From Argopecten irradians (Eukaryota > Mollusca > Bivalvia > Pectinida > Pectinidae): 64,000 bases of DNA. Below are positions 18,640 through 53,181 of the stretch, in pieces (positions within the stretch are counted from its first letter, which is position 1; each line of letters opens with the position of its first letter). The position numbers were made by a program, and so were the translations under genes. The notes beneath the pieces were generated by a model that searched no databases, had not been told where the DNA came from, and saw nothing but the letters and a program-made list of their open reading frames with translations. The stretch spans positions 22,613,655-22,677,654 of the forward strand of contig NC_091137.1 of assembly GCF_041381155.1 (NCBI RefSeq). The letters run 5' to 3'.

Positions 18640-19049
18640 TTAATAGGCTTGGATAAGGAATCCAGAAAAGGAACTATACGCATTGCCATGTATCCTGTAT
18701 CCTGATGGGTCAAGAGCGTGTTCCACCCAAACCGACTGGCCTTGCTGAAGCGGTACAACAACAAGTTTGCTTCCGTTGTCAGAATTGTTACCATTTGCAA
18801 AGGCGACACCAATCTGATGACCATCTTTGATTATGGCGACATGAAGATATGACTCACTCCCGTAACACATGACAGTCACGGAAAAGGCGTACAGACCAGT
18901 TATGGGGGCAGTGAAGTGACCTTGATGGGGGTCATAACCGTTACCGTCGTTGGATACAACAGTGTCAAACACTATGATCTGGTTTACACCAAGGGCGGTA
19001 TGCGCTGACAGGGTCGCAGAGAAACCAATACCTGGCATGGCGTCTGAAA
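18640..19049 (-). CDS. C1q-domain terminal exon, locus C
   Basis: A 410-nt exon whose codon phase continues from the linker exon, giving VSDAMPGIGFSATLS and ending FSGFLIQAY then TAA. It fits the C1q signature spacing F-x5-N-x4-Y-x6-F-x5-G-x-Y-x-F (F of FDTVV, N of NDG, Y of YDP, F of HFT, G/Y/F of GLYAF). The later conserved parts are LHVAIIKDG, NGSKLVVVPL and QGQSVWVEH. It holds the complete jelly-roll domain of about 130 residues, with no collagen repeat before it. It is closest to locus D, with which it shares the QAY end. Confidence 0.9.
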
Positions 19050-22000
19050 CTAAATATTTCACATACGGGTAACTGACTCTTAAGTAACATGCTCAAATAT
19101 TTTTGCAATTGTTATGAATGTATTTCTAAGAGAAAGTCCGATGTTTTGACTTAGATATACAAGTCCATAGTGAATGAATGTCGTTGTTGAAGTGAAGACC
19201 GCTTACTCTTCCTGTGCATCTTGTTATAATATCCCACAACCATTAGTTCTGCATTAATCTAATATACATGTTCTTTTCGTGAAATTAATCTCAGAAGATG
19301 AAAACTAGTCCCATCTTTGTTTTACCTCTTTTTTGAAGAGTCTTCGGCAGTAATTGCCATTGATCTACAAAATTAAGTAAGAAATGAATCAAATTTATGC
19401 ATAAAAAATGCTTAATTTGTCGTCTTTATTTTGTAGTTTTGTCGGTTTCAAATGCATGCATGCGTTAAACATATTCAATTTTATTTAAATAGATAATCAA
19501 TTATATCTAGATTGTTGTAGCTTGATATGAAAGGGACAATTCAGTGAGGCTACCTCTGTTACATAACTACGAAGCAAAATATGGTATAAATGTTTTGTTC
19601 TACAACAAAGATGCTCCATAACATTGTTCAGTATTTTAATTGATACTGTTGACATTTCTAATCGTATAGTAACACGATTAAGCAGGTACAATATGTGCGC
19701 TGTATCCACAACCGAGGCAATGTCACGTAAGTTTAAAATTGTAATACAAAACCACCGATGAGTTTATAAAATTGTTTTAGTCTGGAACATACCACAATAT
19801 TTAAAGGAGGACAGTGAGAGAGTTTGAACAATTCACACACATTTTGCCACAGTGGGCTTTCCTGTCATACTTCAGTAAAACCAGATAATCTAAATTCCAT
19901 TAGAACATGTTTGTTTCCGATATATGTGCAAATTTTAATGTACTCTTAGACTGAATTGTCCTTTAAGATTCGTTCTGAAATACATTTAATGTATAGCTAG
20001 GTAGCTTGCTGCATAAAGAGAAAACAATTTTTTGTATAACATATTGTAGAAACTTTATGACATAGAGGTTACCTTTTAGTTCATTATTTTCGGCTGTAAG
20101 ATCCTCTATCCGTTCTTCGAAGTGTTCTGTAACGAAATTTAACTTTTCGATGATGTTACAAACCATAATCATCAAAACCAATATTCTGGGAATTTCAAAT
20201 CAGCTTCTTTATACGTATTGATGTAAATAAGACAAATAATAACATTGAATTACAAAAGTAAATTGACATACCCTTTAGCTCTTCTATACGTGTTTCGAAG
20301 TGATCTGTAAAAAAGAACAAGGAAATATATCCATGATATATAATATTATCTTAAATGTGTCACGTTTAGATTATTTTCGGTCACGACTTTAATCACTTGC
20401 AAGGACAATTTCTTCAAATGTGAAGAATTACAGCAAACTACGACACTTGATTTATTCTGTTTTGGTGAACTCATTTAACTTGCATATCTTAACCAGTATC
20501 AAAACGGTTGCTTTTTAAGCATGAAATCACGATCAGGAAACAGGGACTAATAGGCATACCTTTTTGTTCCTGTTTATCAGTTGGAAGCTTTTTGATGCTA
20601 TCAGAAAAAGGATTTTTCTCTGTGACAACGAAGCATTAAATCGAACTATGGTATCCTTGATCTTTTGATAATTACAATATAAAATATTTATGTATAAAAA
20701 AATATACAAATATATCTTTAAAGGAAGAAAAAAAGTAATCGCTAATTGCGGAACTATGTTTTTTAAACTTCAAAATTACGGTATTTGTACGTTTAATACC
20801 TTGTGTATAGCAATCAAATTCAGTCATGGACTACATTGGTATTTTCCTATCTCATTACATCTTACAACTTCTATCAACCGATGCCTCCCCCCACAAAAAT
20901 AATTATAATAAATAAATAATAAATCAATAAAAAAAAAACATCCCAAGACATGATAATTCAGAAACAGATGAAAATTGCAAATGTGGATTTGTAAGTAATC
21001 GGTATAACACGCATGAATATAAATGTAGTTACAATATCTAAACAAAAATGCTAAATATTTGTGTACTCGTGTAAGGATATTTGATACCCCGAACTCCCCG
21101 CACTGGTATTGTATATCTGTTGTATAATTCTATTTTAACTTATACTACTACTGATAATACGTGAACTAATTTAATATATTTTGACCAACTCCTATTATGA
21201 ATTGTTTTTAACAGATCTTTTGTACCAAACTGAAACGTGAAGCAAGAATCATCCATGATACATATATCGTATACTACTCATCACTCGACTCACATCAATA
21301 TACCCTTGAGTCCTCGGTGCTCAGCAGCAAGAAAATACTAAAGATATAATTTCATAAACATTCAATGAAACATATATTGGATATAGGCAATCGGGTTTAT
21401 AAGGAATGGGTCTTGATTTTTAAGATGAAAAGAATTGTCATCATTTAAATAAAACAACCTCTATCATATCAACTTATGCCTTGTTGCTGATGCGCAAACT
21501 GACATAAGAAATGACCTAAATTTTTAAATAATTTTCTCTCTCTGAGATTTTTCCCCTTGCATTTTATAAACTTGAAATCATGATCCTTCTGTCTATATTA
21601 CTGTAAAAGAAGAATTATTCGCGGTGTTGATGTTTTCGGTTAGTTAACTAAAAAGCACGTATACAGTAAATTATAGCCTTTATAGTTTCGCTTGTATTAG
21701 TAGGTGATGCAATATAAATTTCAATGAAATCAACATACCTTTTAGCTGCTGGTTTTCAGCTACAAATATAAGAGACCCGTAAACATCAAAAACGAAAATG
21801 ATTGAATCACGTTTCTTTTCTTTTATTGTATTATATAGATATATTCTAAATTAGGAAAAATAAAGAAATTAATGTGTTTCATTAAGGACGCCGATGCACA
21901 AACATTTAGGAGATATGCGATGTGACTTTGCAGAATTACATGTATTTGGAAGTTGAACAAAACGTTTATATTTAGCAATTTTTAGTTTTTCTCTGCTAAA

Positions 22001-22301
22001 AGTGAATGCTAATTTTAAAACATGATATATATGTAAAGTGTCACTTGATTATCAAATGAGGTTGAAATAGTTAACTGCACTAAACGATAATGTAAAGAAC
22101 TCAATAATAAAGAAAACATATTAAATGAATTGGAATGGAAGGGGAAATCATCTTACCATTCTGACGCAGGAAGGCGGTCTGTAGTGCCTGAACCTGTTGC
22201 TGAAGAGACGAGAACGTTTCCTTGGTAACTTCAGTATCACAGGTAACCGTGGTAGTTACCATAGAAATACAAACTAGATATAATATTACTATGGACGACA
22301 T
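18640..22301 (-). CDS. Locus C: secreted coiled-coil C1q-domain protein
   Basis: Eight minus-strand exon modules are visible: 22,157-22,301 (signal peptide, MSSIVILYLVCISMVTTTVTC, then SLQQQVQALQTAFLRQN); 21,739-21,759 (AENQQLK); 21,304-21,324 (AEHRGLK); 20,560-20,601 (DSIKKLPTDKQEQK in the paralogous frame); 20,272-20,304 (DHFETRIEELK); 20,073-20,126 (EHFEERIEDLTAENNELK); 19,326-19,364 (linker DQWQLLPKTLQKR); 18,640-19,049 (C1q). All are phase 1 to phase 1. The exons at 21,304 and 20,560 follow CTG instead of CAG, so their acceptors look lost. Skipping both keeps frame and predicts 233 residues; all eight would give 254. An in-frame upstream ATG exists at 22,328; I chose 22,301 because the paralogues start there. 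As for related bivalve proteins, the product is probably secreted and oligomeric, binding microbial or self ligands through the C1q head; that role is inferred. Confidence 0.8.
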
Positions 22302-22352
22302 AGCTGTACGACAAGTATTGTCACACAAGTTAAAGGAACGTCACAAATTTTA

Positions 22353-22378
22353 TTTTTATCTTACAGATAAGCTGACAC
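22353..22378 (-). promoter_or_regulatory. Shared GATA/TATA-like upstream motif, locus C
   Basis: On the minus strand GTGTCAGCTTATCTGTAAG is followed by ATAAAAA, 52-77 nt upstream of the start codon. CTTATCTGTAAGATAA forms an inverted pair of GATA-type sites. It is nearly identical to locus D and conserved in layout in B, F and G. Confidence 0.55.
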
Positions 22379-24778: not shown

Positions 24779-25188
24779 TTAATAGGCTTGGATAAGGAAT
24801 CCAGAAAAGGAACTATACGCACTGCCCTGTATCTTGTACCCCGATGGGTCATAATAGTGTTCTACCCAAACCGATTGGCCTTCCTGGAGAGTAACAACAA
24901 CAAGTTTGCTTCCGTTGTCCGAATTGTTACCGTTTGCAAAGGCAACACCAATCTGTTGACTGTCTTTGATAATGGCGACATGAAGATATGACTCACTCCC
25001 GTAACACATGACGGTCACAGAGAAGGCGTACAGACCAGTTACGGGAGCAGTGAAGTGGCCGTGTCTGGAGTCATAACCGTTACCGTCGTTGGTTACAACA
25101 GTGTCAAACACAATGATCTGGTGATCGCCAAGAGCGGTGGTAGTTGATAGAGACGCGGAGAAACCAATACCTGATGTAGCGTCTGAAA
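24779..25188 (-). CDS. C1q-domain terminal exon, locus D
   Basis: 410 nt, starting VSDATSGIGFSASLS and ending FSGFLIQAY then TAA. The C1q signature spacing is met: F of FDTVVTN, Y of GYDSRHG, F of HFTAP, and GLYAF. The back half has LHVAIIKD, NGSKLVVVTL and EGQSVWVEH. It is very close to the locus C exon. It is a full C1q domain with no frame problem. Confidence 0.92.
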
Positions 25189-28100
25189 CTAAAATCAGGT
25201 AGCTAAAACATGCAGAAGGCTTGTGATACGATAGCTCAATATAAGCGTTTGTCTGAAGCACCTATGTTTGGACTTTCGGTTAGCTGCTCAAATGTTACAA
25301 ACTTGGAGAACATTGAATTTTTGTTGCAAAGGGAATACGTGCTTATGTTTTATATACTTAAAAATATCTTTTGTCAGAAGCGAGGAATGCATTTCCAGAA
25401 CATTATGTAGTATATGGGTAACTAAATCTCATTGTGTCAAACACAAATGTTTTTACCTTATATGGTAATAAATTTATACGACCTTTTGACTACGACATAC
25501 AAGCCAATATGAAAGGTGTTTGGCCTGATTCACTCGATAATTACTCATAACTTTTCCGTCGTTTTCACTCTGCCTAATTCTCATGATATAAATGGATATT
25601 ATGGATGTAATTGGTAGCGTGAAGATCGCTTACTATCACGATGCACTTCCTTAAAATAGCATAGAATTATAAGTTCTGAATTATTGCAAAATTTATGTGG
25701 CTATCACGAAATTGATTTCGAAAGATGAATACTAGCCGCATCTTTGTTTTACCTCTTTTTTGAAGAGTCTTCGGCCATGGGTCTACAAAGTTGAGTAAGA
25801 CATGATTTAATGTTTATACATAAATCTATTTAATTTGATATTTTTTTTCGGTTTTCAGATGCATTCGTGCTTGAGACATATTCCATGATACTTGAATAGA
25901 TAATGACATAATAATAGATAATTAAGATTCGTTTTGAAATTATCTTAATGTATAGCAAAGTATTTTTGCATTAAGAAACAATGTTTTATATAACATATTA
26001 TTAGATTTGTGGCATAGAGCTTACCTTTTAGTTCATTACTTTCGGCTGCATGATCTTCTAAACGTTTTTCGAAGTGTTCTGAAATGAATTATTTTTATGA
26101 CGATGAAATGCAAATCAACTTCATCAAAACCAATATTGTATGAATTTCAAATAAGCTTCTTCATATGTATCGATGTAAATAAGCCAAAATAAAAATAATA
26201 TTGCATTACAAAAGTAAACTGACATACCCTTTAGTTCCTCTATACGCTTTTCGAAGTGATCTGTAAAAGGAACGAAGAAATACCTCAATGACAACGATAA
26301 ACTAATATCTAAATAAAATTGTTTTTAACGTGATACATCTAGATTACTTGCGATTACTACTTTAATCACTTACGAGAGACTTTATGAGAGAACTAATTTA
26401 ACATATCCAATTTGGAAATAATTAATAACTAACAACCTTTAGACGGATCTACTTACTTAAGAAACGATCGAGATCCTTTGTTTACTTGATTGGGCATTTT
26501 ACAACATTAACAGGGGAGGCTGAAGTTGGTTCCGCTTAAACGGAACTTGGAACTCGGAACTAACTTCAGCCTCCCCATTTACAGCAATATATATGCACAA
26601 CTGGATATGTCAACAGACGACCTGGGCAGTTCTTCTGTCCTTATCGCCTACATAACCTATCGTCGTACCGGCGGTATGTTCTACACTGCCTCAGTGTTGT
26701 GTTCTCTAACCCTGGCTTCCCAACTAGCCAGTGACCCGTACTCTTGGCATACACGATTCCTCCGCGTCCCCTTGTCGTAAACACAGTAGATGAGAAGACA
26801 ATATCCTACTCCGAGGTATGTCACTACCCTCTATCCCTGTTATACTCCGGGGACAACCTCTGGCACCACTGCCAGTGTCCTATTCCGAGCTATGTCACTA
26901 TCCTCTGTCCCTGTTATACTCCGGGGACAACCCCTGGCACCACTGCCTGCCCTTGCCTGTGTCCTACTCCGAGCTATGTCACTACCCTCTATCCCTGTTA
27001 TACTCCGGGGACAACCCCTGGCACCACTGCCTGTGTCCTATTCCGAGCTATGTCACTACCCTCTGTCCCTATTATACTCCGGGGACAACCCCTGGCACCA
27101 CTGCCTGTGTCCTACTCCGAGATATGTCACTACCCTCTATCCCTGTTATACTCCGGGGACAACCCCTGGCACCACTGCCTGTGTCCTATTCCGAGCTATG
27201 TCACTACCCTCTGTCCCTATTATACTCCGGGGACAACCCCTGGCACCACTGCCTGTGTCCTACTCCGAGATATGTCACTACCCTCTATCCCTGTTATACT
27301 CCGGGGACAACCCCTGGCACCACTGCCTGTGTCCTATTCCGAGCTATGTCACTACCCTCTGTCCCTGTTATACTCCGGGGACAACCTCTGGCACCACTGC
27401 CAGTGTCCTATTCCGAGCTATGTCACTACCCTCTGTCCCTGTTATACTCCGGGGACAACCCCTGGCACCACTGCCTGTGTCCTATTCCGAGCTATGTCAC
27501 TACCCTCTGTCCCTGTTATACTCCGGGGACAACCCCTGGCACCACTGCCTGTGTCCTACTCCGAGATATGTCACTACCCTCTGTCCCTGTTATACTCCGG
27601 GGACAACCCCTGGCACCACTGCCAGTGTCCTACTCCGATCTATGTCACTACCCTCTGTCCCTGTTATACTCCGGGGACAACCCCTGGCACCACTGCCTGT
27701 GTCCTATTCCGAGTATGTCACTACCCTCTGTCCCTGTTATACTCCGGGGACAACCCCTGGCACCACTGCCAGTGTCCTATTCCGAGCTATGTCACTACCC
27801 TCTGTCCCTGTTATACTCCGGGGACAACCTCTGGCACCACTGCCAGTGTCCTATTCCGAGCTATGTCACTACCCTCTGTCCCTGTTATACTCCGGGGACA
27901 ACCCCTGGCACCACTGCCTGTGTCCTATTCCGATCTATGTCACTACCCTCTGTCCCTGTTTATACTCCGGGGACAACCCCTGGCACCACTGCCTGTGTCC
28001 TACTCCGAGATATGTCACTACCCTCTGTCCCTGTTATACTCCGGGGACAACCCCTGGCACCACTGCCTGTGTCCTACTCCGAGATATGTCACTACCCTCT

Positions 28101-30945
28101 GTCCCTGTTATACTCCGGGGACAACCCCTGGCACCACTGCCTGTGTCCTATTCCGAGCTATGTCACCTACCTCTGTCCCTTTTTTACTCCGGGGACAACC
28201 CCTGGCACCACTGCCAGTGTCCTGGTCTGAGTCGCCTGCAATACCTTTGCCACTCAAGTGTGAAAAATACAAAACCTCTGTCACTCCTCTGAATAACCTC
28301 TGGCACGACTGCCAGTTCTGAGCCTTCCTGGCGTACCCAGGGCCGTTCACACTCCGTCACTGACACTGACAATGTGTACATCACCAGACAATCTTTGCAA
28401 GCAACCCCTTACTCAGGACCTTCCATCGATATACACAACGTACCGATACCAATGTTGCCTTTTCAGACAACCCCCTTATTCAGGTGCTGCTGGCACCAGT
28501 ACTTTGTACAGCGATCAATCTAAATCTCAAAACAAGTTAGTTTTCGCTAACGTTTACTTTGAGCAGTGTATCCAGCTCTGATTGTTGATTTTTGGGTGTT
28601 TATAGTCAAGATTTAAGTAACAACTTTCACACGTTACTATGACCGTCCTCTTTTCTCAACACAGTCTTGGGACCGGCTACGGCGGAGTTAGTATCCAGCC
28701 CTTTTGATTAATTGATGGTCCTTATTCCGGTTATAACCGAGCCTAGGACAAAGTATCCAGCCCAACACATTTCGGTATGATTGTGTAATAAGTCATGTTC
28801 CCTGACAATGGTATAATTCATTTGCATACAGTAACTTGCAGTTGTAAGTTCTTTTTTATATCACCATCATATTGTAAGGTACATATTACCATTTTGGCAA
28901 AAATCACTATAAGCAAACCTAATTAGTCAAATTGTAGTATATGTATCGCCAACGATATTTTTTCTGACAACTTACCAGACTTAAAATACCCTTAACAGTT
29001 ATCAACTATGGATCTTTGTTGAGGTTCACTTGGTGATATACTACCCTGGTAGAATTATATAATGACATGTACAATGAGCTATACCCTCTTGTCATTAGTT
29101 GATATTCTTCCAGTATGACATCAATAGACCGAATTAAAGGACGATATGTTATTTATTACTTTTTTCAATGTTGTATGAAAAAAATACAAAAAGAGCAACC
29201 CAAGTACATTTTCCCGAACAACTCGGGATATTTTTACGTCACAGTAGCAATAGCCAATGCGAATAATGATAAATCGTAGCATGTCTAAATAGTATCCACA
29301 AAAAACGCATTTTCAATACATGAAATCATAAGGAAAGTGAGAATAATTGGCATACCTTTTTGTTCCTGTTTATCAATTGCAAGCCTTTTCATGCTATCTG
29401 AAAAAGAATTTTTCTTTGTGATAATGAGGCCTGAAATCAAACTTAACATTGCAATTATGTTAATTACAATATGAAATATTTATCTAAACAGGAAAAAAAT
29501 CAGGAAAAAGAAATTCAGCTAAAATAAGTTTTCAGCTTAAGTATTTGTGTTCATGTGTAAGGATATATGATACACAAGATCCTAATTTCGACGGAACTCC
29601 CCGAACTGGTATTGTATATCTGTTGTACTAATTCTGTCTTAATTATTACTATTGATGCAACTGCTACGTGCACTATTTGAAGTATTTTTAACCAACTCTG
29701 ATGATGAATTGATTTTAACATATTTAATGTTTTCTTTTACTAAACTGAAACATGAAGAAAGACTACTCATTACCCGACTTTTTAAACTGAACACTTGATG
29801 TGGTAATTTTCGTTCAATGAATTGAAAAACATACCCATGAGTTCTCGGTGCTCAGCTGCAAAAAATAGAAATATGCAATATAATGACACAGACATTAAAT
29901 AAATTATATATTAGATATATGTAATCGAATATATAAGATTGATTTTTCAGATGAAAAGAACTGCCATCATTCAAATAAAAACAACCTCTATCACATCCAC
30001 TTACACATTGAAGCCGATATGCAGACTGAGTAGACGGAAAAATGAGGCAATTTATATTTTAAGTAATTTGATCTCCATCTTGTGTGTTCATTACATTTAA
30101 TAAAATTGTCTATATAATTGTAAAAGTGGAATTAATCTCGGTGTTAATATTTCGCTTAATTAGCTTTCATTAAATATCCTCGTGCAAACATATTGACAGG
30201 CCAGATTGTTTTACATGTAAATAATTTTACTATAGGTGTTCAGTGTGTGCCTATTGTTACATCGTGAATAGGTTTAAGCCATGCTTTGCGATAGACGAAC
30301 ACGCAAAAATTATGTGCATGTTTTTTCGGGAAGTATAGCCTTAATAATTTTGCTGGTATAAGTCGGTGATAAAATATAAATTTCATTTGAAACAACATAC
30401 CTTTTAGCTGCTGGTTTTCAGCTACAAAAATAAAAAACATGTTAAGTATAAAAACAAATATGATTGAATGAATTTTTTTTCTATTATTGTATTATACAGA
30501 TATATTCTAAAATAGTAACAATAAAGAAATATTTAAGACGCACATGCACATACATTGAGGGAATAAGCGATGTGACTTTGCAGAATTACTTGTATTTTGA
30601 AGTTGAACAAAATGCTAATATTTAGTTAATTTTAGTTTTTCTCTGCTGTCAGTGAATGCTGATTTTAAACAATGAAATGTAAATTGTCACATAATTATCA
30701 AATGAGGTTGAAGTAGTTAATTACAATAAACAGCAATGTACAGAATTCAATAATAAAGTAAATCTATAAATAAAATGAATGGAAGGGGAAATCATCTTAC
30801 CATTCTGACGTAGGAGGGCAGTCTGTAGTGCCTGAACCTGTTGCTGAAGAGACGAGAACGTTTCCTTGGTAACGTTACTATCACAGGTAACCATGGTAGT
30901 TACCATAGACATACAAACTAGCTGTAAAATTGTTATGGGCGACAT
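24779..30945 (-). CDS. Locus D: secreted coiled-coil C1q-domain protein, intact
   Basis: All eight exons have AG acceptors, GT donors and phase-1 junctions: 30,801-30,945 (signal peptide MSPITILQLVCMSMVTTMVTC plus SLQQQVQALQTALLRQN); 30,401-30,421 (AENQQLK); 29,835-29,855 (AEHRELM); 29,358-29,399 (DSMKRLAIDKQEQK); 26,228-26,260 (11 codons, DHFEKRIEELK); 26,025-26,078 (EHFEKRLEDHAAESNELK); 25,753-25,782 (linker DPWPKTLQKR); 24,779-25,188 (C1q). The sum is 756 nt, or 251 residues plus stop. The stalk exons code 7, 7, 14, 11 and 18 residues, lengths that suit coiled-coil heptads and hendecads. The linker is three codons shorter than in C. The intron between 26,260 and 29,358 holds a 74-bp minisatellite. 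Secretion and trimeric or higher assembly are inferred from the signal peptide and stalk. This is the best template for annotating the family. Confidence 0.87.
26513..26576. repeat. 22-bp inverted repeat beside the minisatellite block
   Basis: Arms 26,513-26,534 and 26,555-26,576 pair with one mismatch (GGGGAGGCTGAAGTTGGTTC on the left) around a 20-nt loop. It sits at the left edge of a less AT-rich block that holds the minisatellite, so it may mark the end of an inserted element. No partner is seen at the right edge. Confidence 0.7.
26805..28222 (+). repeat. 74-bp minisatellite, about 19 units
   Basis: About 19 near-identical head-to-tail units run across the block, each with TATACTCCGGGGACAAC and CTGGCACCACTGCC. 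One unit is 73 bp and one is 75 bp. Variants of the unit start (CTACTCCGAGATATG against CTATTCCGAGCTATG) and CCCTATTATAC against CCCTGTTATAC recur in pairs, showing duplication of multi-unit blocks. The unit has no stop in any plus frame, so all three frames stay open for 470-525 codons. Because 74 is not a multiple of 3, each frame spells the same 74-residue cycle. The array lies in an intron of locus D, antisense to it. I regard the open frames as a consequence of the unit, not as evidence of a gene. Confidence 0.92.
28223..28800. other. Unexplained stretch flanking the minisatellite
   Basis: Richer in C than its surroundings, with a degraded fragment of the repeat unit (CCTCTGGCACGACTGCCAG near 28,298) and AGTATCCAGCCC twice (near 28,690 and 28,755). 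It is probably part of the same inserted block as the minisatellite. I recognise no gene in it. Confidence 0.4.
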
Positions 30946-39639: not shown

Positions 39640-40049
39640 TTAATAAGCCATGATCAGAAACCCCGAAAAGGCGCTGTGGCCATAGCCGTGTATCTTATAC
39701 CCTGACGGATCGGAAAAGTGCTCCACCCAAACCATCTGTCCAGCCTCCAGTTGTACAACCACGAGTTTGCTCCCATTATCATAGCTGCTTCCATTGGCGT
39801 AGGCTTTTCCTATCATCTGACCGTCTCTCATGATGGCAGCGTGAAGATTCGACTCGCTTCCATCACACATGACAGTCACAGAGAAGGCGTAGAGACCTGT
39901 AACGGGGGCAGTGAAGTGACCTTGATGGGGGTCATAACTGTCACCGTCGTTGGTTACCACAGTGTCAAACACTATGATCTGGTGTTCACCAAGGGCCTTG
40001 GGTGTTGACAGGGACGCGGAGAAACCAATACCTGCTCCTTCCTCTGAAA
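39640..40049 (-). CDS. C1q-domain terminal exon, locus F
   Basis: 410 nt, from VSEEGAGIGFSASLS to FSGFLIMAY then TAA. The C1q signature spacing is kept (FDTVVTN, SYDPHQG, HFTAP, GLYAF), with NLHAAIMRDG, NGSKLVVVQL and AGQMVWVEH. The MAY end groups it with locus G. There is no frame defect. Confidence 0.92.
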
Positions 40050-42017
40050 CTAAATACCAGAACCTAGGTAATATATAGAATATGTAAGCTAATATTTATT
40101 CCATAAGCAAAGTCGATCCGGTTTTTCAAATTATTCATACACGATTAATCTTGTTTTTCTCTGAGATTTCAGCAATACACGGGAGCTGACATTGATGATG
40201 CATACCAGTGTATCACGAATGTAAGTGTCGGATTTCTCTGTTTTATTTCACAGCAAATTATATCCTTTAAAAGCAACCTATACTTTGAGATATATGTTTA
40301 TGGTGTTAGCAAATAATTTAAGTTTTTATCATTATCTTCTTTCTTTCTATTATTTATATAATTTGCATTTAAATTACAAATAATGTACCTCTCCTTTGCT
40401 GGGAGCCGTCAGATTGCAAGTAATCTGAAAATTTGAAAATAAGATTTAAAATTTACGAATGATTAAGAAATGTATTTCATATATTATATTTGCCATACAT
40501 GACTATTTCATAAAACAGAAAAAAAATATCCAAGTTTCATATCATTAGATATTAAAATTTAGAGATTGAAAATCACAGTATATCGCATGCTTTATGAATC
40601 AGAAAGAGTTTTGCATATTAGATATATAAGATTTTTAATCCAATAAATCAATTACCTTTCAGAAGCTTATTTTCTGCTTCAAGATCTTCTATCCGTTCTG
40701 TGAAAGTAATAGACATTTTAATGATATATAAAATCAGTACTTTTTTCAAATTTATCATTTCAAGTAAAATGCTTACTCAGTAAACCAGTTAAAAGCTATA
40801 AATTCTATAACTACGTCAACATATCTTCTTTGCGAATTGCGAAGTATTCTGTAAAAAGGATATTCATCTGTATAATTACAAAACATCAAACCATATATAA
40901 GAGTCGCTATATCCAAATGGTCTTTATTCGATTAGGCATGTGTTTCGTTATTATAAGATCTCTGACTAGAGATTACTTTTATGAAATAATTTAAACCGCG
41001 AACATATTGGCTAGCGAAGTTGTGTTTAGATGAACCCCGCTAGAGTTCATATTCACAGCTTATTATCACGTCTGCTTAGTTGATGGAAATGCCCATTAAG
41101 CAGTTGGGCTTTATATGGAGGTGGTCACGTAGTCAAGATTGGCTGTAATTTATAGATCATAAAAGAAGTATGCAATTGAAAACGTCAAATTACGATCCGA
41201 AACTAATCTGACCTACCGTTTTGTTTATGGTTTTCAACGGTAAGTCTTTTGATGCAATCTGTAAAAGGAATGGTTTTGTTACTATGCGTAATTAATTCCA
41301 ACATCTCTTCTCATTTTACATGCATTTACAAATGAATATGTAAATGAAAAATGCATCTACATGATACATCTTAAGACACATTTATAAGAAGTGAATCGTA
41401 TGGTCACTGCCAGTAGCTTTAATTCCACATTTACGATTTAATTGCTATTTGCTAAAATTTAGACATACCTTTAAATTCCTGGTGCTCATCTGCAAAAATA
41501 ATAATTTAGAAGTTAATTATATACTGATAATAATAATGGCAATTCCGTCTTTGCATATTACAGAGTAAGCTCCCTTGCGGGAAGGTTTTCTCTGAAAAGT
41601 ATGACGTTACGCTCGCTAACACATGACAGCACAATCAATGCCACCGCACGGACAGATAACTCTGTAATATTGAAATACAGATTATATTAACTAGAATAAG
41701 CTAAATAAAGGCTATGTAGAAATTGAACTAATGGGAAATTGATATTTAAGCCATACATATTACAGAATATTACAGTTATTCGTTATTCAAACGTTATTCA
41801 AATTAAATGTACACACTTAAAACATATTTCACACTTATTGACTTAAGCTAACAAAATGTCGATAGATCTTACCATTCTGACGTTGGCAGGCTGCCTGTAA
41901 TGTCTGCACCTGCTGCTGGAGAGACGATAGCGTTTCCTTGGTAACGTCACTGTCACAGGTAACTAGGGAAGTCAAGACACACAGACAAACAAACTGTACC
42001 AATGCTATGGACGGCAT
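39640..42017 (-). CDS. Locus F: secreted coiled-coil C1q-domain protein
   Basis: The usable exons on the minus strand, all phase 1, are 41,873-42,017 (signal peptide MPSIALVQFVCLCVLTSLVTC plus SLQQQVQTLQAACQRQN); 41,469-41,489 (DEHQEFK); 41,217-41,258 (DCIKRLTVENHKQN); 40,656-40,697 (ERIEDLEAENKLLK); 40,389-40,424 (linker DYLQSDGSQQRR); 39,640-40,049 (C1q). They total 696 nt, or 231 residues plus stop. A further exon-like block ending at 40,848 (EYFAIRKEDM) keeps its acceptor but has no donor that preserves frame, so I leave it out. This is the most compact gene of the family (2.4 kb). A MITE lies in its first intron at 41,541-41,680. Its C1q exon and following intron were copied to 59,216-59,690. 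A secreted lectin-like or opsonin-like role is inferred from the family. Confidence 0.83.
41541..41680. mobile_element. MITE, copy 2, in an intron of locus F
   Basis: It starts AATTCCGTCTTTGCATATTA and shares TCCCTTGCGGG with the copy at 34,872. The right end, reverse-complemented, holds ATTACAGAGTTATCTG. It is shorter than copy 1 through internal loss. Confidence 0.55.
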
Positions 42018-42067: not shown

Positions 42068-42093
42068 CATTTATCTCGAAGATAAGCTAACAC
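42068..42093 (-). promoter_or_regulatory. Shared GATA/TATA-like upstream motif, locus F
   Basis: The minus strand reads GTGTTAGCTTATCTTCGAG then ATAAATGC, 51-76 nt upstream of the start codon. The CTTATCT-nn-AGATAA pairing is kept. Confidence 0.55.
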
Positions 42094-42923: not shown

Positions 42924-43333
42924 TTAATAAGCCATGATAAGAAATCCAGAAAAGGCACTATGTCCGTTACCATGGATTTTATACCCGGATGGGTCAAACT
43001 CATGCTCCACCCAAACCATCTGCCCAGCATCAAGCTGCACAACCACAAGCTTGCTGCCATTATCATAATTGTTCCCATTGGCAAATACCCTGCCTATCCT
43101 TTGGCCGTCTTTCATGATAGCAACATGTAGATTCGACTCGTTTCCAACGCACATGACGGTCACGGAGAATGCGTACAGACCTGTAACGGGAGCAGTGAAG
43201 TGACCGTGTCTGGAGTCATAACCGTTACCGTCGTTGGTTAGAATAGTGTCGAACATTATTATTTGGTGATCGCCAAGGGCCGCATCAGAGGACATGGACG
43301 TAGTAAAGCCAATACCCGCTGCATCGTCTGAAA
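42924..43333 (-). CDS. C1q-domain terminal exon, locus G
   Basis: 410 nt, from VSDDAAGIGFTTSMS to FSGFLIMAY then TAA. The signature spacing holds with FDTILTN, GYDSRHG, HFTAP and GLYAF, followed by NLHVAIMKDG, NGSKLVVVQL and AGQMVWVEH. It is closest to locus F. Confidence 0.92.
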
Positions 43334-46300
43334 CTAGATTTAAGAGGCTTAACAGTATTGAAGCCGAACTTGGCAAAGTCGATTATACATTAACATGCTA
43401 GAAAGTATTTTACATTTTCTTCTCTGATTTGAAAGATCTCTGTTGCGAACTTTAGTTGGTTAGCTACAATTTCTATTTAAACGCAACATGCATAAATAAT
43501 GGTACGTGCGTTGTGGACACAATTATTAAATTGCTAAACCGTCCGATCATTGTCGTTACATTCGTCAGAATTTTATGCAAGATTGATATATAGATGGAAC
43601 TTGATCAATACTTGCATTGGGGATGTACGCCCCTTTCACACATTCAAGGATTATGCTCCGGAACACCACGGATTGGAAATTTTGTTCATCCGGGTACATA
43701 CCAGATGATTCACGGACAGTCAGGAGCACTACGGATTGTGTCGGTCTCTACACGATTATTTCACGGAGGAACCTGGTGTTGAAACGGATATTCAAGGAAT
43801 ATCATGACACACGAACTTGTTAAGTCCGTGAAGCTTCCGGGAACACTCCGTGTGCAATCCGTAGATTCAGTGTTCTTCCGCAGGAAAAAATCGTACGCAT
43901 ATTTAATTTTTCTCCCGGACAAACGTTACCATGCCGGACGGCCCCGGATATCCCCGGATGCATACACGGCCTTAACACGGTGATGGAGGATTGTCAAATA
44001 TTGTCCAGGATTGATCCGTGTTGATCCGGCGCCTCTTCCTTGAATGTGTGAAAGGGGCTTATTGCCGATAAATCAAAAAACGTTTGCACTTCTGGATCTA
44101 TTGTTCTGTTCTAAATTCACTTTGAAAATGTTTGAATACAATTATAATGTTTTACCTCTCTTCTGCTTGGTCATAAGTTGTAATTGCAAATAGTCTGAAA
44201 ATAATATATATATATATATGTATATATAAGATATACTGAATGGTTATGTATATCAGTTCAAAACTGTACTAATAGTTTTAATACTGTACAAACATTATGT
44301 TTAAATGAGTAAAACTTTATCAGAAATACTTCACAAAAGAAATAAACTCAATGATATCAAGTAGCGTGTTTGTAAACCGGGATTGACTAGAAATGTAGTT
44401 AAATAAGTACCTTTAAGTTCATTGTTTTCTGCAGTAATATAGTCTATCCGTTCTGTAAAAAACATATGAAGGTGGTTTTCAAATTTAGTTTTTAGTGTTT
44501 TTATTTCTGGTACCACATAATACAGATACAGGCCAGGTAGGCCAATATTATAATAAGTAAGACTAAGAACTGATGAAGAATGAGACTCAATTACACCAAT
44601 TTATTTTCCTATATAATGGATGTCTTTCTAACAAAAAATATAAATCAATATTAAATATTTTAACAAGTTAATTCACATTGGAGTTAAGTTTTACGAGAAA
44701 AAAATAAGTAAATAACATACTGAAATGATGTATAGATGTTATGCTGAAATGCACACAATGTATTGTAAAATTAAAGAAATATTGAATATATGTACATCAA
44801 TTATAAATAATAAAAATGTTGAGGTATTTTTCCCTGGTGTTTTGTATGTTTATATATCACTTCCTGGTATAGGTGGTCTTGAAGTTAATAACAATGGAAT
44901 ATAACTAATGGGGTTAAAAGTTGCGTTGTAAAGTGTTGTGCGCTTGTTATTACCATGTACATGCCATTTAAATGTCAACAGTATTCTCTAATATTAGCCA
45001 TGATGTATATAAACCCTTGATCACTTTTGGTTTGTTAATTGTACCAAAGACTTCATTAAAAGGCTTGAAAACGATCACTAGATTAACATTTCAAGTCATT
45101 ATATGAATACTCTGTTTTTTTCTTTAATACAGATTAAATAGACATACCCTTTTAATTTTGTTGTTTAGTTGTAGAGATAACAAAATAAAAATTCAAATTA
45201 TAAATATAAATACGAATTGAACAAACTGATATTTTTTGATATCTTTCCTAGTAATTGGAAATCATTTTTGATGTTCAAGGCATTCCTATATACAGTGCAA
45301 GCAACGGGATATCTTTATATTGGAAAACAATCTAAAATAAAGTTTATGAACTATCATTATCTTTTGTCGAATTTCATCTGCAATAATACCCCGTTCATAT
45401 CATGCTGTACATTTTTAATAATGTTTAACATTATTAAGAAGGTAATCTTATGCAGACGGTAAAATTCAATTAATTAAACAATTAAAGAATTGATATGATA
45501 ACAGAAATCAAGTGCATGTGTATCTTACACATTTAAGATAAAGAGTGATTTGTTTAAATGAAATCATGCAGAACAACATCACCGAGGAAACCTTTGAAGC
45601 ATTATAATCGCTAATATGTGTACATTACTTTAAACTATATCACGATATGATTGATCATTATGTTTTATTCTTTAGTAATAGCGTCATTTAAAAACAACTA
45701 ATAAAGACTGCTTTTATACCGGGATTGATAAGACTAACCACTGATGAGGAATGAGACTCAACTACATCAAATTGTTTTTCTATATAATGCATGTCTTTCT
45801 TTTCAAACGATCAATAACTCAATAACAAAAAATATCTTTAACAACTTAAGTTCACATTGAATTTTAATTTTAAGAGAGAAAATAAAAAATAAGTAAATAA
45901 CATATTGAAATAGTGTATGAATGTTATGCTGAAATTCGTAAAATATATCATAAAATTAAAGAAATGTTGAAGACATGTACATCAATAATGAATAATAAAA
46001 AATGGTCCCCTGTTTAAGTAAGTGTTGTTTTGTATGTTTTTTATCACTTCTTAAATGGACTTGAACATAACTAAGTTGATAAAAATGAAACATAACTAAT
46101 TGGGTAAAAAGTATGTACATTGTTGACTCGTAAAGTGATGTGTTTTTATTTTTTTTATTTAGACAAGGTATATGAAATAATTTACAAACTACACAGCAAT
46201 ATACGAGTCAACAGTTTTTCCGTATTTAAGCCATGATGTATCTAAACCTTTACCAAACAAGCGATTTATAGTTTTGCCAAATATCACTAATTAAACAGGG

Positions 46301-49300
46301 GGTAATGCCTTCGATTTGTTATTTCCTGATTTAATACCTTTAGTGGAAATTATTTGAATATTATGCATTTTTCTTACCTTTTTGATTTTGTTGTTCAACT
46401 GTAAAGATAACAAAACAAAATTCAAATTATGGATGAATATATGAATTTAACAAATCGATGTTTTTTCATCTTTCCTAGTAATTGGAAATCACTTTTGTAA
46501 CAAGCAACGCATTATCTCTATAACGGACATGCAAAAAAAAATCGTAAATAACTTTTGTGAACTTTCGTTATTGTTGTTTGCAGCAATAAACCGTTCATTC
46601 TTTTCTATTAAGTTTAAAACAAAAACCAACCTTTTACATTGATTGAATCTACGACAATTTTCTTACAACGTTTAACATTAATGCGTAGGTTAGATTTTCC
46701 AGACGGTCAAATTCAAGTAATCAATTAATTAAAAATTTGATATATAAAAAAAACTTTACGTAAAATAAAGAGTGTTTTGTTTAAATCAAATCAAGCAGAA
46801 CAACACCACCGAGAAAACTTTTAAAGCATTATAACCGCTAACATGTTTACATGGCTGTTTAAAACAATATTATGATAATATAAAATTAACATACCCTTAA
46901 GTTCCTTATTTTCAGCTGAAAATAATAAAAAAGACACACATCATCTTATTAAGCAAACTTAAACAACACGGATACGCGTTTGGTTTATCCCATTCATGAA
47001 GCAGACAAACATAGATATTTTAAGCAAAACATATTTCCAATAGCTCGTAAATAAAAAATAATCGACATATAACGTTTGTTAAAGCGAATAGTCGGGCAAG
47101 TGACTGTAAAATCGGTAAAAATGGTATTAATATATCCGGTATAATTTCTTATGAATTAGAAAAATAAAACTTTCCGTCAAAATCGCTGTACATGCGAAGA
47201 AAATAATAATATCTATGGGAATCCTAAAAGTCCTCCCGACCGGCTATGAGTGCAGGTCAATCTTAACGCATGCGCAACATCCACCACTCTCCGTAGTAAA
47301 CAAAACATGGCTACCGTAGTTTTGAACCAAAAGGTTTCCGCCAAAACAACCAACTGACTCACCTAAAATGCGAAAGGAAAGGCAATGGAGCAGCGACAAT
47401 CCCAACAACTGACTCGTTAAACATTACGACGCATGGAGAGTGTTAATACAACTTGTTATAGTGAAGAGAACAGTTCAAACGAGCACGCGGCTCCGTAGAA
47501 CGAATAATCATACCCTGCCTCCACTCCGTTCCCGGCAGGGTATGAATTCCACCCCGTTGCCGCTAGTGTTGCAAGCCCCGATGTGATCCACATCGGGCAC
47601 TTTGAGACTGATAAAAATATATTTTTCGGGTATTATCCTTATGTAACTGTATTGTTCTGACAACTATGATCAATATTCAATTCACAAACCTTTCGATTAT
47701 AATCTTTCATCAACTATTAGTGGTAAAATCGACGGCAAACACAACACATGTATAATTCTGTTCAAATAGCCGCCATGTTTGATTTACCGGAAACCGTGAC
47801 GAAATGAAACAAATATGTTTAAAAGTTTTAAAAAGCCAACAAACTAAGAATAAATATGGTGAAACTGAACAAATGTAAGTATTATTAAGAATTAAGCAAA
47901 AAAGAATTTTTAAAGTTCATGTTAAAAACTTTGTAACATTTATTTCTTTCGTAGTGAAAATTTGTAGGTCATTCCATATATGGTACTAGGTGCCATATTT
48001 GGAGCGCGAGACTTTCTAACGAGAAGCATCATGGCGGCCAAGTGAGCCGTGTCGGAGATGCGAGCCATTCAAAAGTGCTTCAAAACATAATTTTGACAAG
48101 GAGGTGGGTAAATAAATAATCATTTTATGTTAAAAATGTTTGATATTGTTGAATTTAATTAAAAAATTACATGACACACATGAAATGCAACATTTTCACC
48201 GCTGGATGTTTTGCAACACTACGGGCAATGGGACGGAATCGTAGCTCTGACGACGACCATCTGTCAGAAATCTTCCGTCCGTCGTTCAGAGCTACGTCAT
48301 CGCAGCTAGCGGCTCCGGACCGCTACTGTACGTACCTAGGCCTACTACCCGGTACTCCCTGATCAGCTGATAGTGAGTGAGTCTTCGTATTTTGATCATT
48401 ATGTTAATAGTCCCTAGCAGTATTTTTTCATAAATGAGTGGTCACATTTGGTCACATGTTTCATACCTGTTCCCCAATCGCGTAAAACGTAACCCTGGGG
48501 TAAATAGCGGCTCTTTCGTGGGGCCTCTTTAGGGGTAATGAATGCCCTGTATATTTATAAAATGTACCGTTGTAATGCATGTACAGTTAGAATGTAACCG
48601 CTAGTGCATTATCAAGTTAAGATTTGTTTCAATTAATCTATAATATTATGCTACCGGTCAATACAGACCTGATGTATATATTTATAGATTTTTAATTTGT
48701 AAATTTTTGTTCTGTACATGTTCTGGTAAGTGTTATACACATACATTGTATATAGGATTTACATTGTAGGTTAATTGGTAAAATTGTATTGTATATGTTC
48801 TGATATACACATATACATATGTACATGTAGGTTTTAGCTTGTTCTTTAGATATATTTGGAGGACACATACAGTATTATTTCTGGTCATAATAATAAATAG
48901 TGTTTGTATATTTATTACAACTGTACCTGGTTCATGTGTATATGACAAACTTTACAGAGTTGAAATGTACTGCAGCCATGTATCATTTATAATTATTCTG
49001 AATTTTTGTTGGAACTATAGATAATGAATTTTGTATCTTTTTTGAAACAATATTTGATTCTATCAAATGCATCAGTGACACATTCACAACTTATAAAATG
49101 TTTTTCTCTAAAATAAAAAAAAACCCTGTAGAATGAACCTACATTTATTCATTTATATATATTTGAAATTGATCATTTCAATTTTTGTCATATTCAACAG
49201 ATATAAAAAATTGTTGGTTCTTTTTTTCAGGCACCATGCATGCATAGTGACATGAATACAGAAAGTTCATCCGTTGGACCTGTATACAAGTGTATGTATA

Positions 49301-52300
49301 CATATACATACAATTAGCATCATATGAAGACTGAAGAATGTTGATATGAGTGCACTTGAAAGTAAACTTTTCCAATATGGACCTAGAAGATCATGAACAG
49401 AACATTTAAACAGTATTAATTTATTAAATGTTCCTTTCAACTGTAATCATTAAAAAAATTATGATGCAATACTTTTTCATTGTTTAACTTTGTAGAAATA
49501 TTTGTTTATATTAGTCCTCTAGATCCAGTGATTATAATTCTTGCATCCATATGCCGGCCCATTTGTTTGTCAGGGCTTGTGAGGTAGCTTTTCAATTACT
49601 TTTAAAATATAAGGATTTTTTTTTTACATATAGCAATATAGATACCATTGTCTTAGCATTTCTAAATTCTACTTTACAAGAGAGTAGACTCAACATATAA
49701 ATAAAACCATAAAACTAGCAAGTTATCTGAAATGTTAAAAATCTTTTTGTCTGAACCAAATTTCACATTTATTGTCTATGTGTAACTTGTACATAGACCA
49801 TTTATGTATTAATACTGTAGTAACAGTGATTACAAACACATAGACTAAAATGTAGTATGTAGTACTATGTACATCTGTCTTTGATTTGAGTTCTAAACAA
49901 AAAAGTGGTACCTATTGGGAAGTTGTGACTTGGGCGGAGGGTGAAATACAGAAGAAATAGCTACACATGGAAAAAAAGAAAGATATACAGTACCATATGG
50001 ATTCAAAGTTGCTCCAAAATCAATGAGACTAAATAACCAAAAAAAAGCCATGTAAACCCCAAATATGCAATGACCAGATCAATGATAAAGCACCCTTCCA
50101 CTTCCAGTTATCTGTAGCTATTTCTTCTATATTTCAACCCCCCACACAAGTTACAACTTCCCAACCTCATGATTCTTCTGACACACATACCTGATTGATT
50201 GTCATGTTATTTCAGGTTCCTATTCAGGTATTATTCCTAAAAACCAAAAAGGGTATACACACTGTGTACTCTCAAAGGAGGGGAACCACTTCATTCAAAA
50301 ATGGAATTTACAATTTCATCTTAATTTTGAAATTTTCAATTTAATTATTAATTACTGGACTATTAAAACAGTATAGAACCCCTCGGCTACAGACAAAGTA
50401 CTGTGGTACACATTTCTCTTAATAAATTACTTTTCTTCAACTCAATCTCAATCATCATCTTTTTCTCCAGAGCACAAAAAAGAACAGGAAACAACAGAAA
50501 AGGAAAGTAACATACATGTAGGCCTATATGTTTTCTGGAAATATATATGATGTGTTAATTCTCACAGCATAGGCCTACATGAATGTGAAGAATTAAATAT
50601 TATCAATGTTTGAGAGAATTTCCTAGTTGTAATTCTATAGCAGCTACATGGAATGTACGTTTACATATATACATTGTACGATACATATACATCATAAAAG
50701 TTTCTTTCCTTCCAGCTGGACATTCATGTCATTTCTCTCCAGAACTCAAATATTGTTTACAAAAAAACAAAAAAACAAAACAGAGACATAGATAATTTAA
50801 TTAAATCTCTGCAAAAAACTACACGAATAATTGAACACATATATTGTACTTGTAAAATATCTATGTATGAGCTAATTTATTTTCACATCTTTGACAGCTA
50901 CATGCATGGACGTTCTATGGAACGTTTTCGTGTGGTTTTAAATGGGAAATTATGTTATGATTATTTGTACTTAACCTTCATGATTCGGTTGATGTAAACA
51001 AGGATTTATAAGTGAGACCATATACGTCCTTGATGTAAAATACGACGAACGCGATGCTGCAATAATTGCCCCTTCCGGGGCCCCATCTCTGCATCGGCCG
51101 AATATTTGTGTCGATTTCCATGTACAAGATGCTTTTATCGAAAAATTATTACAAAGCATTGTCATTAATGTAAGAATACTTCATTTGCATCAAATGTATC
51201 ATCTCAAAACAACAATTTGCATACCGCATTTGTGGTTTATCACCGACACGACTGAGAAACACATGTCCATGTTGACATTTCCACGCAGCCTCGTTTTCAA
51301 AGAGTTTGGCGAATTTATATTTAGAACTGTGCTAAATTTACACGGTGCTTCCCCAAAATTTCAATGGTCAAAACTGGACACCGTAAGCAGAACTTGACCA
51401 TCATTATGGTATACAATGACTTTTGGAAGGCCAAAGAACGCATTTAGTCTGGTTTCCTTTGCCCGACTATTCACTTTAAGGTAAAATCTGAAGTCCTGAA
51501 TTATTTTCAAATATCAAATCATTTGGATATATTTTTTATCTTTAAATAAAGGCATGCGCAAAGCCCATTCATTCATATCATAAATACTTGTTTAGTTATA
51601 TTCCCACTAGTATTTTACGTTGTGCAGAACATTTCAGTGTTTTAGTATTATAGCATAGCATTTTAAACTACGAAATACCCCTTGAGCATCTGATGTTCAC
51701 CTGAAAAATAATATAGCGGAATGAACTGATGAATTAACAAAAGTGTGGCATACATATCTTACTTTAAAGATGCTCCACCGCTGACAAACCGTATTTTGTT
51801 CTCTATCAAAACCAGGAGCAGACAAATAAGTATTTAAAAGTGTGGCATATATATCGCATATCATTTGTAATTCATTGAGTTGTGTAAAAGTTATGATGGT
51901 GTTGATTTCAAGAATAAATGGTCCTATACAATACTGTATCATCCAATATGCTTTTAATGTAAACTATATAAACGTACCTTTTAGCTCATGGATCTCAGCT
52001 GCAATTATGAGAAATAAATCACATACAACGACATGAAATTTACAACAATTTTAGTCATATTTAATCATGTTGTAAAAGACGAAAGAATGAAAACAAATAC
52101 AGAATGTTTCATAAAAACCTGAATTATTTTACATACGTTTTTCGTTGCCTTATCAACCGCAATCTCTGAAAACTTATTATTTAATTATTGTTGATAAGAT
52201 TGGAGTTGTCACATATCATATGTTATAATGTCAGTAATTACCTATGTGGACAATTCTAGGAATCAATTACTAATACAACAAGGATATTAGGAAGAAACTC

Positions 52301-53181
52301 TTTTAAAAAAAAGACATTTGCTGTGGAGATAAAGATATAAAGCCGATTTTAAGTAATCTACAAGTTAACTTCACAGAGTGGACAAAGTGTGTAATGCTGA
52401 CAACGCAAGTTGAAAATTTTCGTGTTTAGATAATACAAAATCTTTTTAATGCTTTGTAGACTACCCTTGTATATCGGCCTAATATTGACAACACGTACAG
52501 GTTACACATGTATTACACATGTACATAGCACAAACTAGATTGTTTTATTTCTATTTTCGTCTTGAACTTATTTTGGATATAACTGATAAATACTGACAAT
52601 CTTCAGGTCAGGTCAATGAAACGATATCAGGTGACTGTGTTGTTTATTTTGAGTTATGAGGCTCGTGTTCTACGGTGTACATGTGCGCGTTCAGTGTTTC
52701 AATGAACAACACAAGACTGGTCACTAGGTGCCCTAAAATAATGGCGGCCCACTTTCCTTAGAAATGATGGCCATTTGAAAGAAAAATATTTCCCTCCCAT
52801 CAGTAATGCTTTTAATTTGTATTGTCAGCTTTATTTTGATAATCTATATAGTTAATGAATATGTCCTACTCAATCATAGACCTTAACACTATTTACGGAT
52901 ACCATGCATAACATATATAGAAATCGAAATATTGCAAAGCAAATATTTGTAAAGTTCATCACTCTGATATATTAAATGATTTATAAAGCATAATGTACGC
53001 CTATTGACTAATTTAAATAGAGGAAAAAATTCTGACCATTTTGGCTTTGAAAGGCGACCTGTAGCGTCTGCATCTGCTGCTGGAGAGACGATAGCGTATC
53101 CTTGGTAACGTCACTGTCACATGTAACTGGGGCAGTCATGGCAAACATACAAACCAACTGAAATAGTTTCCGGAACAACAT
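42924..53181 (-). CDS. Locus G: secreted coiled-coil C1q-domain protein, transposon in intron
   Basis: The frame-keeping exons are 53,037-53,181 (signal peptide MLFRKLFQLVCMFAMTAPVTC plus SLQQQMQTLQVAFQSQN; donor GTCAG rather than GTAAG); 51,978-51,998 (AEIHELK); 46,895-46,915 (AENKELK); 46,378-46,398 (VEQQNQK); 44,411-44,452 (ERIDYITAENNELK); 44,156-44,194 (linker DYLQLQLMTKQKR); 42,924-43,333 (C1q). They sum to 699 nt, or 232 residues plus stop. Three more exon-like blocks look lost: 52,137-52,165 (29 nt), 51,679-51,700 (22 nt, GEHQMLK-like) and 45,148-45,168 (acceptor AG gone). The introns hold a 4.4-kb TTAA/TIR element, a MITE and a tandem duplication. Expression is uncertain given the long intron insertion, but no essential part is missing. 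Confidence 0.75.
43629..44057. mobile_element. MITE, 429 bp, PIF/Harbinger-like ends
   Basis: Perfect terminal inverted repeats begin GCCCCTTTCACACATTCAAG at 43,629 and are mirrored ending at 44,057. There is no transposase frame. The CCCTTTCACAC-type end and the TAC/TTA flanks suggest PIF/Harbinger, without certainty. It is more GC-rich than its surroundings and carries several CCGG/CGGA-rich blocks. It lies in the last intron of locus G. Confidence 0.7.
44560..46890. repeat. Tandem duplication of about 1.2 kb carrying a micro-exon
   Basis: The text from GACTAAGAACTGATGAAGAA (44,561) recurs as GACTAACCACTGATGAGGAA (45,732). Similarity continues through TGTCTTTCT, AAATAACATA-TGAAAT and the micro-exon block (45,148-45,168 against 46,378-46,398) to GAACAACA-CACCGA near 45,570 and 46,797. 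The copies differ by many substitutions and small indels, so the duplication is old. The right copy keeps a working micro-exon; the left has lost its acceptor. Confidence 0.8.
47496..48308. mobile_element. 813-bp insertion with 9-bp target duplication
   Basis: It is flanked by GCGGCTCCG on both sides (47,487-47,495 and 48,309-48,317). The sister copy has the site once, uninterrupted, near 2,290, so the insertion is exactly bounded. It starts TAGAACGAATAATC and ends ATCGCAGCTA. It has a hairpin CATACCCTGCC/GGCAGGGTATG at 47,512-47,546 and a TCGTAGCTCTGA/TCAGAGCTACG inverted pair near the right end. No long TIR is seen. The 9-bp duplication suggests a MULE-type non-autonomous element, which I cannot confirm. 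Confidence 0.7.
49915..50164. mobile_element. Small nested TIR element (MITE), second copy
   Basis: Counterpart of 9,057-9,305, with the same TTGGGAAGTTGTGACTTG ends. Its presence in both host copies shows it moved as a passenger. Confidence 0.6.

Follow-up and report, generated by a model that had tools for sequence, protein, structure and literature searches.

Bivalve genomes hold up to hundreds of C1q genes, most of which have a coiled-coil stalk replacing the collagen tail of the vertebrate proteins (PMC6835236, in excerpt). In the excerpted text of that report the type II genes (signal peptide, coiled coil, C1q) make up the commonest C1q gene class of Crassostrea virginica, and the six paralogues of its Figure 3 have two exons. 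Schistosome micro-exon genes (MEGs) consist to about 80% (PMC5825161) of short symmetric exons, of 6–36 bp in one paper and up to 81 bp in the other, and give rise to protein variants via alternative splicing (PMC10526429, PMC5825161, both in excerpt). Here we describe a tandem C1q gene cluster from the minus strand of a 64,000-nucleotide stretch of the 846-Mb genome of Argopecten irradians (C4:22613655-22677654, hereafter the window), in which four genes, C, D, F, and G, are complete and appear to encode their coiled-coil stalks in micro-exons, each the size of whole coiled-coil repeats. Fibrillar collagen has 54-bp exons for its Gly-X-Y triple helix, and the cluster resembles it in having repeat-quantised rod exons and in that exon changes would keep the structural register, although the stalk is here a C1q type II coiled coil rather than a Gly-X-Y triple helix.

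As in the bivalve C1q-like type II genes (PMC6835236, in excerpt), we find what looks like a secreted-type start, a coiled-coil stalk, a C-terminal C1q domain, and an arrangement in tandem clusters, but unlike the six two-exon oyster paralogues of that text the stalk is spread over three to five micro-exons of heptad or hendecad type and an additional linker exon. With the MEGs, as far as the excerpts describe them, the cluster shares proteins that, here, look secreted-type, a succession of very short symmetric exons set apart by long introns, and the potential for frame-neutral exon gain, loss, or skipping. It differs from them in that the micro-exons are a coding minority (in C, modules and linker together make 147 of the 696–702 coding nt, as against about 80% in MEGs), in the coiled-coil-quantised lengths, and in the ordinary C1q head. 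No report of heptad micro-exons in C1q genes was found in the titles and abstract beginnings of the open-licence PMC literature, among the matches listed.

The four genes follow a single plan: a 145-nt coding exon 1 that ends in phase 1 is followed by between three and five stalk micro-exons, then by a single linker exon, and last by the C1q exon (Table 1). The exon 1 translations begin with a hydrophobic stretch followed by VTCD or similar, which by eye is signal-peptide-like. The predicted order of stalk exons is 21, 33, and 54 nt with a linker of 39 nt in C; 21, 21, 42, 33, and 54 nt with a linker of 30 nt in D; 21, 42, and 42 nt with a linker of 36 nt in F; and 21, 21, 21, and 42 nt with a linker of 39 nt in G. 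All 15 intact stalk modules and the four linkers are preceded by AG, followed by GT, open, a multiple of three in length, and joined in phase 1. Lengths (21, 33, 42, or 54 nt, linkers of 30–39 nt, a 410-nt C1q exon), phase-1 intact junctions, and sequences are as given in the original prediction, which was made from the letters of the window alone, and to which we add that splice sites are broken in two exons of C and two of G. Two of its statements need qualification. Its rule that exons code for sums of 7 and 11 residues holds for the 15 intact modules and fails for the linkers (10, 12, and 13 residues), and the C1q exon, which it took to be a constant 410 nt, is so when read from the first acceptor, a second one 6 nt further on giving 404 nt in the same phase. 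Outside the window the genes I, J, N, and A0 are relatives of the same plan, as is gene X on the unplaced contig C455, whose C1q exon was partly fetched. Among the paralogues the predicted modules total 14, 18, 28, 32, 35, 36, or 57 residues, and in gene I 42 if a fourth heptad exon is counted.

In a register that we set ourselves, anchored on the tail of exon 1 (L..QQQV..L...), f is the first and e the last heptad position of every module. The 21-nt exon is one heptad, the 42-nt exon two heptads, the 33-nt exon a single hendecad (with F at a, I or L at e, and L at h), and the 54-nt exon a hendecad plus a heptad. The claim that module addition leaves the coiled-coil register intact is thus upheld in the chosen register. 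Over 22 distinct modules the hendecads are hydrophobic at a in six of six cases, at e in six of six, and at h in five of six, and the heptads at d in 23 of 28 and at b in none of 28. Given this author-chosen register, the core-position hydrophobicity of eight of the nine stalks was reached by none of 20,000 shuffles, and the A0 stalk, scored without its exon 1, gave a shuffle p of 0.0045; as judged from these predicted sequences, a coiled-coil region would be present ahead of the C1q domain. In each of the 15 window modules the last base is a G followed by GT, and in 13 a Lys codon precedes that G. Since this exon-end donor G opens the next codon, each junction residue has a GNN codon and must be A, D, E, G, or V. 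Heptad position f is the most exposed, so that, we suggest, a residue imposed by splicing would cost least there.

A lax scan of C, D, F, and G listed 48 open symmetric candidates (11, 17, 7, and 13, respectively), only 19 of which are in the models, so that selection needed other evidence, and the exon models were picked from this list by homology and conservation. A further splice scan used a generic score matrix of our own, exon lengths of 15–74 nt, and no frame filter. With strict cut-offs (acceptor at least 10, donor at least 7) 18 candidates emerged from the introns of eight cluster genes (C, D, F, G, I, J, N, and A0), every one of them 21, 33, 39, 42, or 54 nt long, and none from the opposite strand of the same introns; with looser ones (at least 9 and at least 5.5) there were 33, of which 24 had module or linker lengths, against five on the opposite strand, none of such a length. 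Upstream of 20 other C1q exons of the genome (183 kb, see below) the strict scan found eight candidates on the sense strand (21 nt once, 30 nt three times) and four on the antisense strand (30 nt once). Alignment between paralogues points in the same direction: in D-F, C-F, G-F, and D-J all 17 aligned islands lie over predicted exons, the introns there no longer aligning, and in D-G three of four islands overlap predicted exons, the fourth lying upstream of exon 1. Micro-exons plus linker differ by 0.094 substitutions per site between C and D vs. 0.192 for the alignable intron, with 1 vs. 48 gaps, and by 0.089 vs. 0.186 between G and I, with 0 vs. 71 gaps; being nearly gap-free and changing at half the intron rate in two pairs, the micro-exon sequence appears to be constrained. 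One could suppose that chance splice-like sequences had been taken for exons, as the 29 lax candidates left outside the models might suggest, but given the opposite-strand and other-locus controls, the conserved islands, the constraint, and the confinement of the pattern matches to the cluster and two unplaced contigs (see below), we regard this as exceedingly improbable.

That stalk length may change by exon gain and loss, with the frame and the C1q exon kept, was borne out between paralogues by a duplication in G and by loss of acceptors in C as compared with D. The two tandem copies in G (46877-45729 and 45647-44558) match at 67% over 1.19 kb and carry the same 21-nt exon, the duplicate of which has lost its acceptor, and another 21-nt copy in G has a shifted donor, with an intact counterpart in I (66752-66772, GEHQMLK). 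Locus M, a broken neighbour, has three copies of one 42-nt exon in units of about 640 bp. Two exons that are live in D, one of 21 nt and one of 42 nt, are still present as sequence in gene C, where both have CTG instead of CAG as acceptor. In the simplest reading the modules of C amount to 36 residues vs. 57 in D, which is 21 fewer, or three heptads, and with the C linker three residues longer than that of D the whole proteins differ by 18 residues. DNA searches for a second haplotype of these broken exons matched only C itself and D, and with one C copy in the assembly an assembly error at its acceptors is possible. Length has also shifted within exons. The 42-nt exon ERIEDL... matches the final 42 nt of the 54-nt one, its acceptor lying 12 nt deeper, and a seemingly internal heptad makes the difference between the 33-nt and the 54-nt exons; in A0, exon 1 exceeds the other first exons by one heptad. 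In the tree C pairs with D and G with I as sisters with 99–100% support, seven of its ten inner branches not being resolved. Exon number might also simply drift, heptad gain or loss being harmless and stalk length a neutral by-product without adaptive meaning. The two broken acceptors in C, the two broken copies in G, and a C-D stalk under lower constraint than the head (see below) are what one would expect of such drift, whereas nearly gap-free micro-exons evolving at half the intron rate in two pairs indicate a constrained sequence, and we hold this explanation to be possible rather than probable.

Exon skipping is common where very small exons lie in long introns, and the original prediction allowed for a splice-tunable stalk. 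One gene would then provide several stalk lengths across animals or tissues by skipping frame-neutral exons, as schistosome MEGs do. Any subset of modules keeps the frame and, by the register of each module, the hydrophobic seam. However, the splice scores of the modules are fair to strong in our own matrix (acceptor 6.6–14.3, donor 6.1–11.2), if anything suggesting constitutive use, and exon duplication yields symmetric exons automatically, so that no role in splicing is needed to explain them; we therefore consider tunable splicing unlikely. We would give equally little credit to the wider proposal that single-repeat exons, with introns fixed at e/f and the GNN codon thereby placed at the exposed f, are a unit of heredity which is duplicated in tandem and deleted by splice-site mutation and, through additional shuffling at the RNA level, yields graded stalk lengths of an immune recognition protein from one locus.

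The C1q domain is recognized in all four genes (Pfam PF00386, E of 1.8e-24 in C, 1.5e-25 in D, 3.7e-25 in F, and 1e-24 in G), and that of D has matches in the PDB to C1q and cerebellin. In C, D, F, G, and I the C1q exon is opened by the two acceptors 6 nt apart mentioned above (e.g., 19043-19049 and 25182-25188), the choice between which would add or omit Val-Ser; in gene J the upstream one is GAG, a poor acceptor. Use of the upstream site yields KR-VSD in C, D, G, and I and RR-VSE in F, and we favour the 410-nt form because this junction matches the KRVSD or RRVSD found before C1q in three other loci (L015, L022, and L023). A dibasic KR or RR stands right before the C1q head at the end of each of the four linkers, and it is also seen in other loci (KRVSD, RRVSD, or KRVSP in L022, L023, L032, and L015). 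The RQKR and RGKR of the stalk–head junction presumably fit a furin-type site, and cleavage between stalk and head is possible. Cysteines occur within the F coil (41873-42017 and 41217-41258) and, in most members, just past the signal-like start; they could possibly form interchain disulfides.

How far this architecture extends was assessed with three sequence-only models built from cluster exons and run on the window, the neighbouring 49 kb, and 20 other C1q stretches (313 kb). A C1q search of the genome gave 241 first-look candidates, of which 150 were scored and all 150 matched; the 20 loci come from the best-scoring of these, without the cluster and its close neighbours. Every model match with E below 1e-3 fell on the minus strand of the cluster (seed exons matching by construction), and among the other loci L031 and L029 matched weakly (E of 0.014 and 0.044). 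Across the whole genome all 13 matches to a 21-nt pattern, both matches to a second pattern, and all 16 matches in an exon-1 search fell in the cluster and the unplaced contigs C455 and C908, in searches that miss diverged modules; the reversed control of the 21-nt pattern had four matches genome-wide. The reach of the modular stalk is therefore narrower than the original prediction implied. When exon lengths are compared with the 20 other C1q loci, as had been proposed, the head agrees and the stalk, where readable, does not: 15 loci have a predicted terminal C1q exon of 392–452 nt entered in phase 1, four have coil and C1q in one long frame, and one is without a good acceptor, while in the seven loci where a stalk could be read (those four plus L015, L026, and L027, in which it is predicted ahead of the C1q exon) it is one long frame. 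On these predicted exons, the phase-1 C1q exon seems to be shared and the micro-exon stalk to be a local elaboration.

One of these loci, L032 (C14:33384899-33394898, at 33.39 Mb), contains, in a long open frame before C1q, tandem copies of a 14-residue repeat, LEKQRQTDQLRISD. It is like the cluster genes in its modular coiled-coil-like stalk ahead of C1q and its KR-VS junction, and unlike them in that the modules are repeats inside one frame and not separate exons. It bears on a further explanation, by which introns were inserted into a long coil exon of 21-nt repeats at a recurring AAAG/G proto-splice sequence at e/f, so that exon spacing would reflect the repeat and not shuffling. The one-frame stalks of the other readable C1q loci and the tandem repeats of L032 fit this idea, as do the 13 of 15 window modules that end in a Lys codon plus G, near the donor consensus. 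Later change, however, has gone through duplication of exon with flanking intron and through splice-site loss. As a full account intron insertion seems somewhat unlikely, although it could be the first origin of the exons. At another locus, L024 (C16:10.13 Mb, plus strand of the locus), a 30-nt phase-1 candidate exon, DGVKK(M/I)SKRV, recurs three times (4402-4431, 7886-7915, and 8879-8908) upstream of a different C1q family, so that a small KR linker exon may predate the cluster.

Taken together, the cluster very probably encodes secreted-type C1q proteins whose coiled-coil stalk comes from repeat-sized paralogous micro-exons, gained by duplication and lost by splice-site mutation, and the evolutionary modularity of the predicted stalk is well supported. 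The products would be C1q-like type II proteins, with a stalk drawn from a family of small paralogous exons, each holding whole coiled-coil repeats (heptad, hendecad, or both). Each intron would interrupt the coil in phase 1 at the e/f boundary, placing a GNN-coded residue at the exposed f. Intragenic tandem duplication would add exons and splice-site mutation would remove them, shifting stalk length in repeat-sized steps while frame and hydrophobic seam are kept and the C1q head stays under purifying selection. From the predicted sequences we infer that the exons are spliced as modelled, that trimers form, and that stalk length alters the spacing or avidity of the heads.

A number of observations count against this interpretation. 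Besides the 29 open candidates left out of the models, the donors of G exon 1 (GTCAGA) and of the I exon at 65897-65917 (GTTATG) are weak. In C, an AG 18 nt upstream of the 42-nt module, which D does not have, would give a 60-nt open phase-1 exon with an acceptor score of 6.9, and its 20 residues fit neither 7 nor 11. The hendecad labels were given after reading the sequences, and position a of the heptads is mostly polar (hydrophobic in 9 of 28, Asn in 12 of 28), so that the coil may be weak. Purifying selection on the head is supported by a C1q-exon dN/dS of 0.11–0.25 in each of the 10 pairings among C, D, F, G, and I, but several of these have dS above 1, near saturation, and the dN/dS of the C-D stalk (exon 1 plus modules) is 0.55, a weaker constraint than on the head. 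One 42-nt candidate recurs in corresponding positions of C (19207-19248) and D (25634-25675), but was not accepted as an exon because 17 of its 42 sites differ between the two, above the intron level. Finally, the module classes are related by descent and their lengths are not independent; a P of 0.007 for four classes all being 0 or 4 modulo 7, which is post hoc and concerns these related classes, was not used.

Table 1. Predicted exons of genes C, D, F, and G and remnants of loci B and E, in window positions.
Locus	Feature	Position	Strand
C	Exon 1, signal-peptide-like start and first heptads, 145 nt coding, ends in phase 1	22157..22301	-
C	21-nt module AENQQLK	21739..21759	-
C	21-nt module, acceptor broken (CTG vs. 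CAG in D)	21304..21324	-
C	42-nt module, acceptor broken (CTG vs. CAG in D)	20560..20601	-
C	33-nt hendecad module DHFETRIEELK	20272..20304	-
C	54-nt hendecad + heptad module EHFEERIEDLTAENNELK	20073..20126	-
C	39-nt linker exon, ends QKR	19326..19364	-
C	C1q exon, 410 nt (404 via second acceptor)	18640..19049	-
D	Exon 1	30801..30945	-
D	21-nt module AENQQLK	30401..30421	-
D	21-nt module AEHRELM	29835..29855	-
D	42-nt module DSMKRLAIDKQEQK	29356..29397	-
D	33-nt hendecad module DHFEKRIEELK	26228..26260	-
D	54-nt module EHFEKRLEDHAAESNELK	26025..26078	-
D	30-nt linker exon, ends QKR	25753..25782	-
D	C1q exon	24779..25188	-
F	Exon 1	41873..42017	-
F	21-nt module DEHQEFK	41469..41489	-
F	42-nt module DCIKRLTVENHKQN	41217..41258	-
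F	42-nt module ERIEDLEAENKLLK, homologous to last 42 nt of 54-nt module	40656..40697	-
F	36-nt linker exon, ends QRR	40389..40424	-
F	C1q exon	39640..40049	-
G	Exon 1	53037..53181	-
G	21-nt module AEIHELK	51978..51998	-
G	21-nt module, shifted donor; extra G before GT would make a 22-nt exon	51680..51700	-
G	21-nt module AENKELK	46895..46915	-
G	21-nt module VEQQNQK	46378..46398	-
G	Broken copy of the 46378 module, acceptor CAA	45148..45168	-
G	Intragenic tandem duplication carrying a 21-nt module	44558..46877	-
G	42-nt module ERIDYITAENNELK	44411..44452	-
G	39-nt linker exon, ends QKR	44156..44194	-
G	C1q exon	42924..43333	-
B	Exon 1-like match (15081-15206) and three modules	12360..15206	-
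B	Modules of 54, 54, and 21 nt	14524-14577; 13327-13380; 12360-12380	-
B	C1q region in three frame-shifted pieces	103-487	-
E	Remnant, whole	37180..38186	-
E	Exon 1-like match with stop	38073-38186	-
E	54-nt module with stop	37180-37233	-

The broken loci comprise B, E, a fragment at 59203-59463, K, and M. Within locus B, between the modules and the broken C1q region, gag-pol-like retroelement open frames occupy 3064-6571 of the minus strand. One intron of D contains a 74-bp minisatellite of about 20 units (26648-28363), whose long open frames, in three frames of the plus strand, are unlikely to be genes, and several related repeats with spacings of about 360–380 and 3360–3405 nt lie at 54303-62958. 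The stretch 11000-20000 of the unplaced contig C455 includes the gene J region, at 99.4% identity over 2.3 kb, followed by gene X, with a 7+7+14 stalk, where the chromosome has gene I. This is possibly a haplotype difference in gene content.

In these bivalve C1q proteins stalk length would be encoded in countable units that, as predicted, differ among paralogues. With such natural stalk-length variants, the influence of length on assembly and binding can be tested directly, and the cluster would clearly exemplify introns whose positions match a protein repeat.

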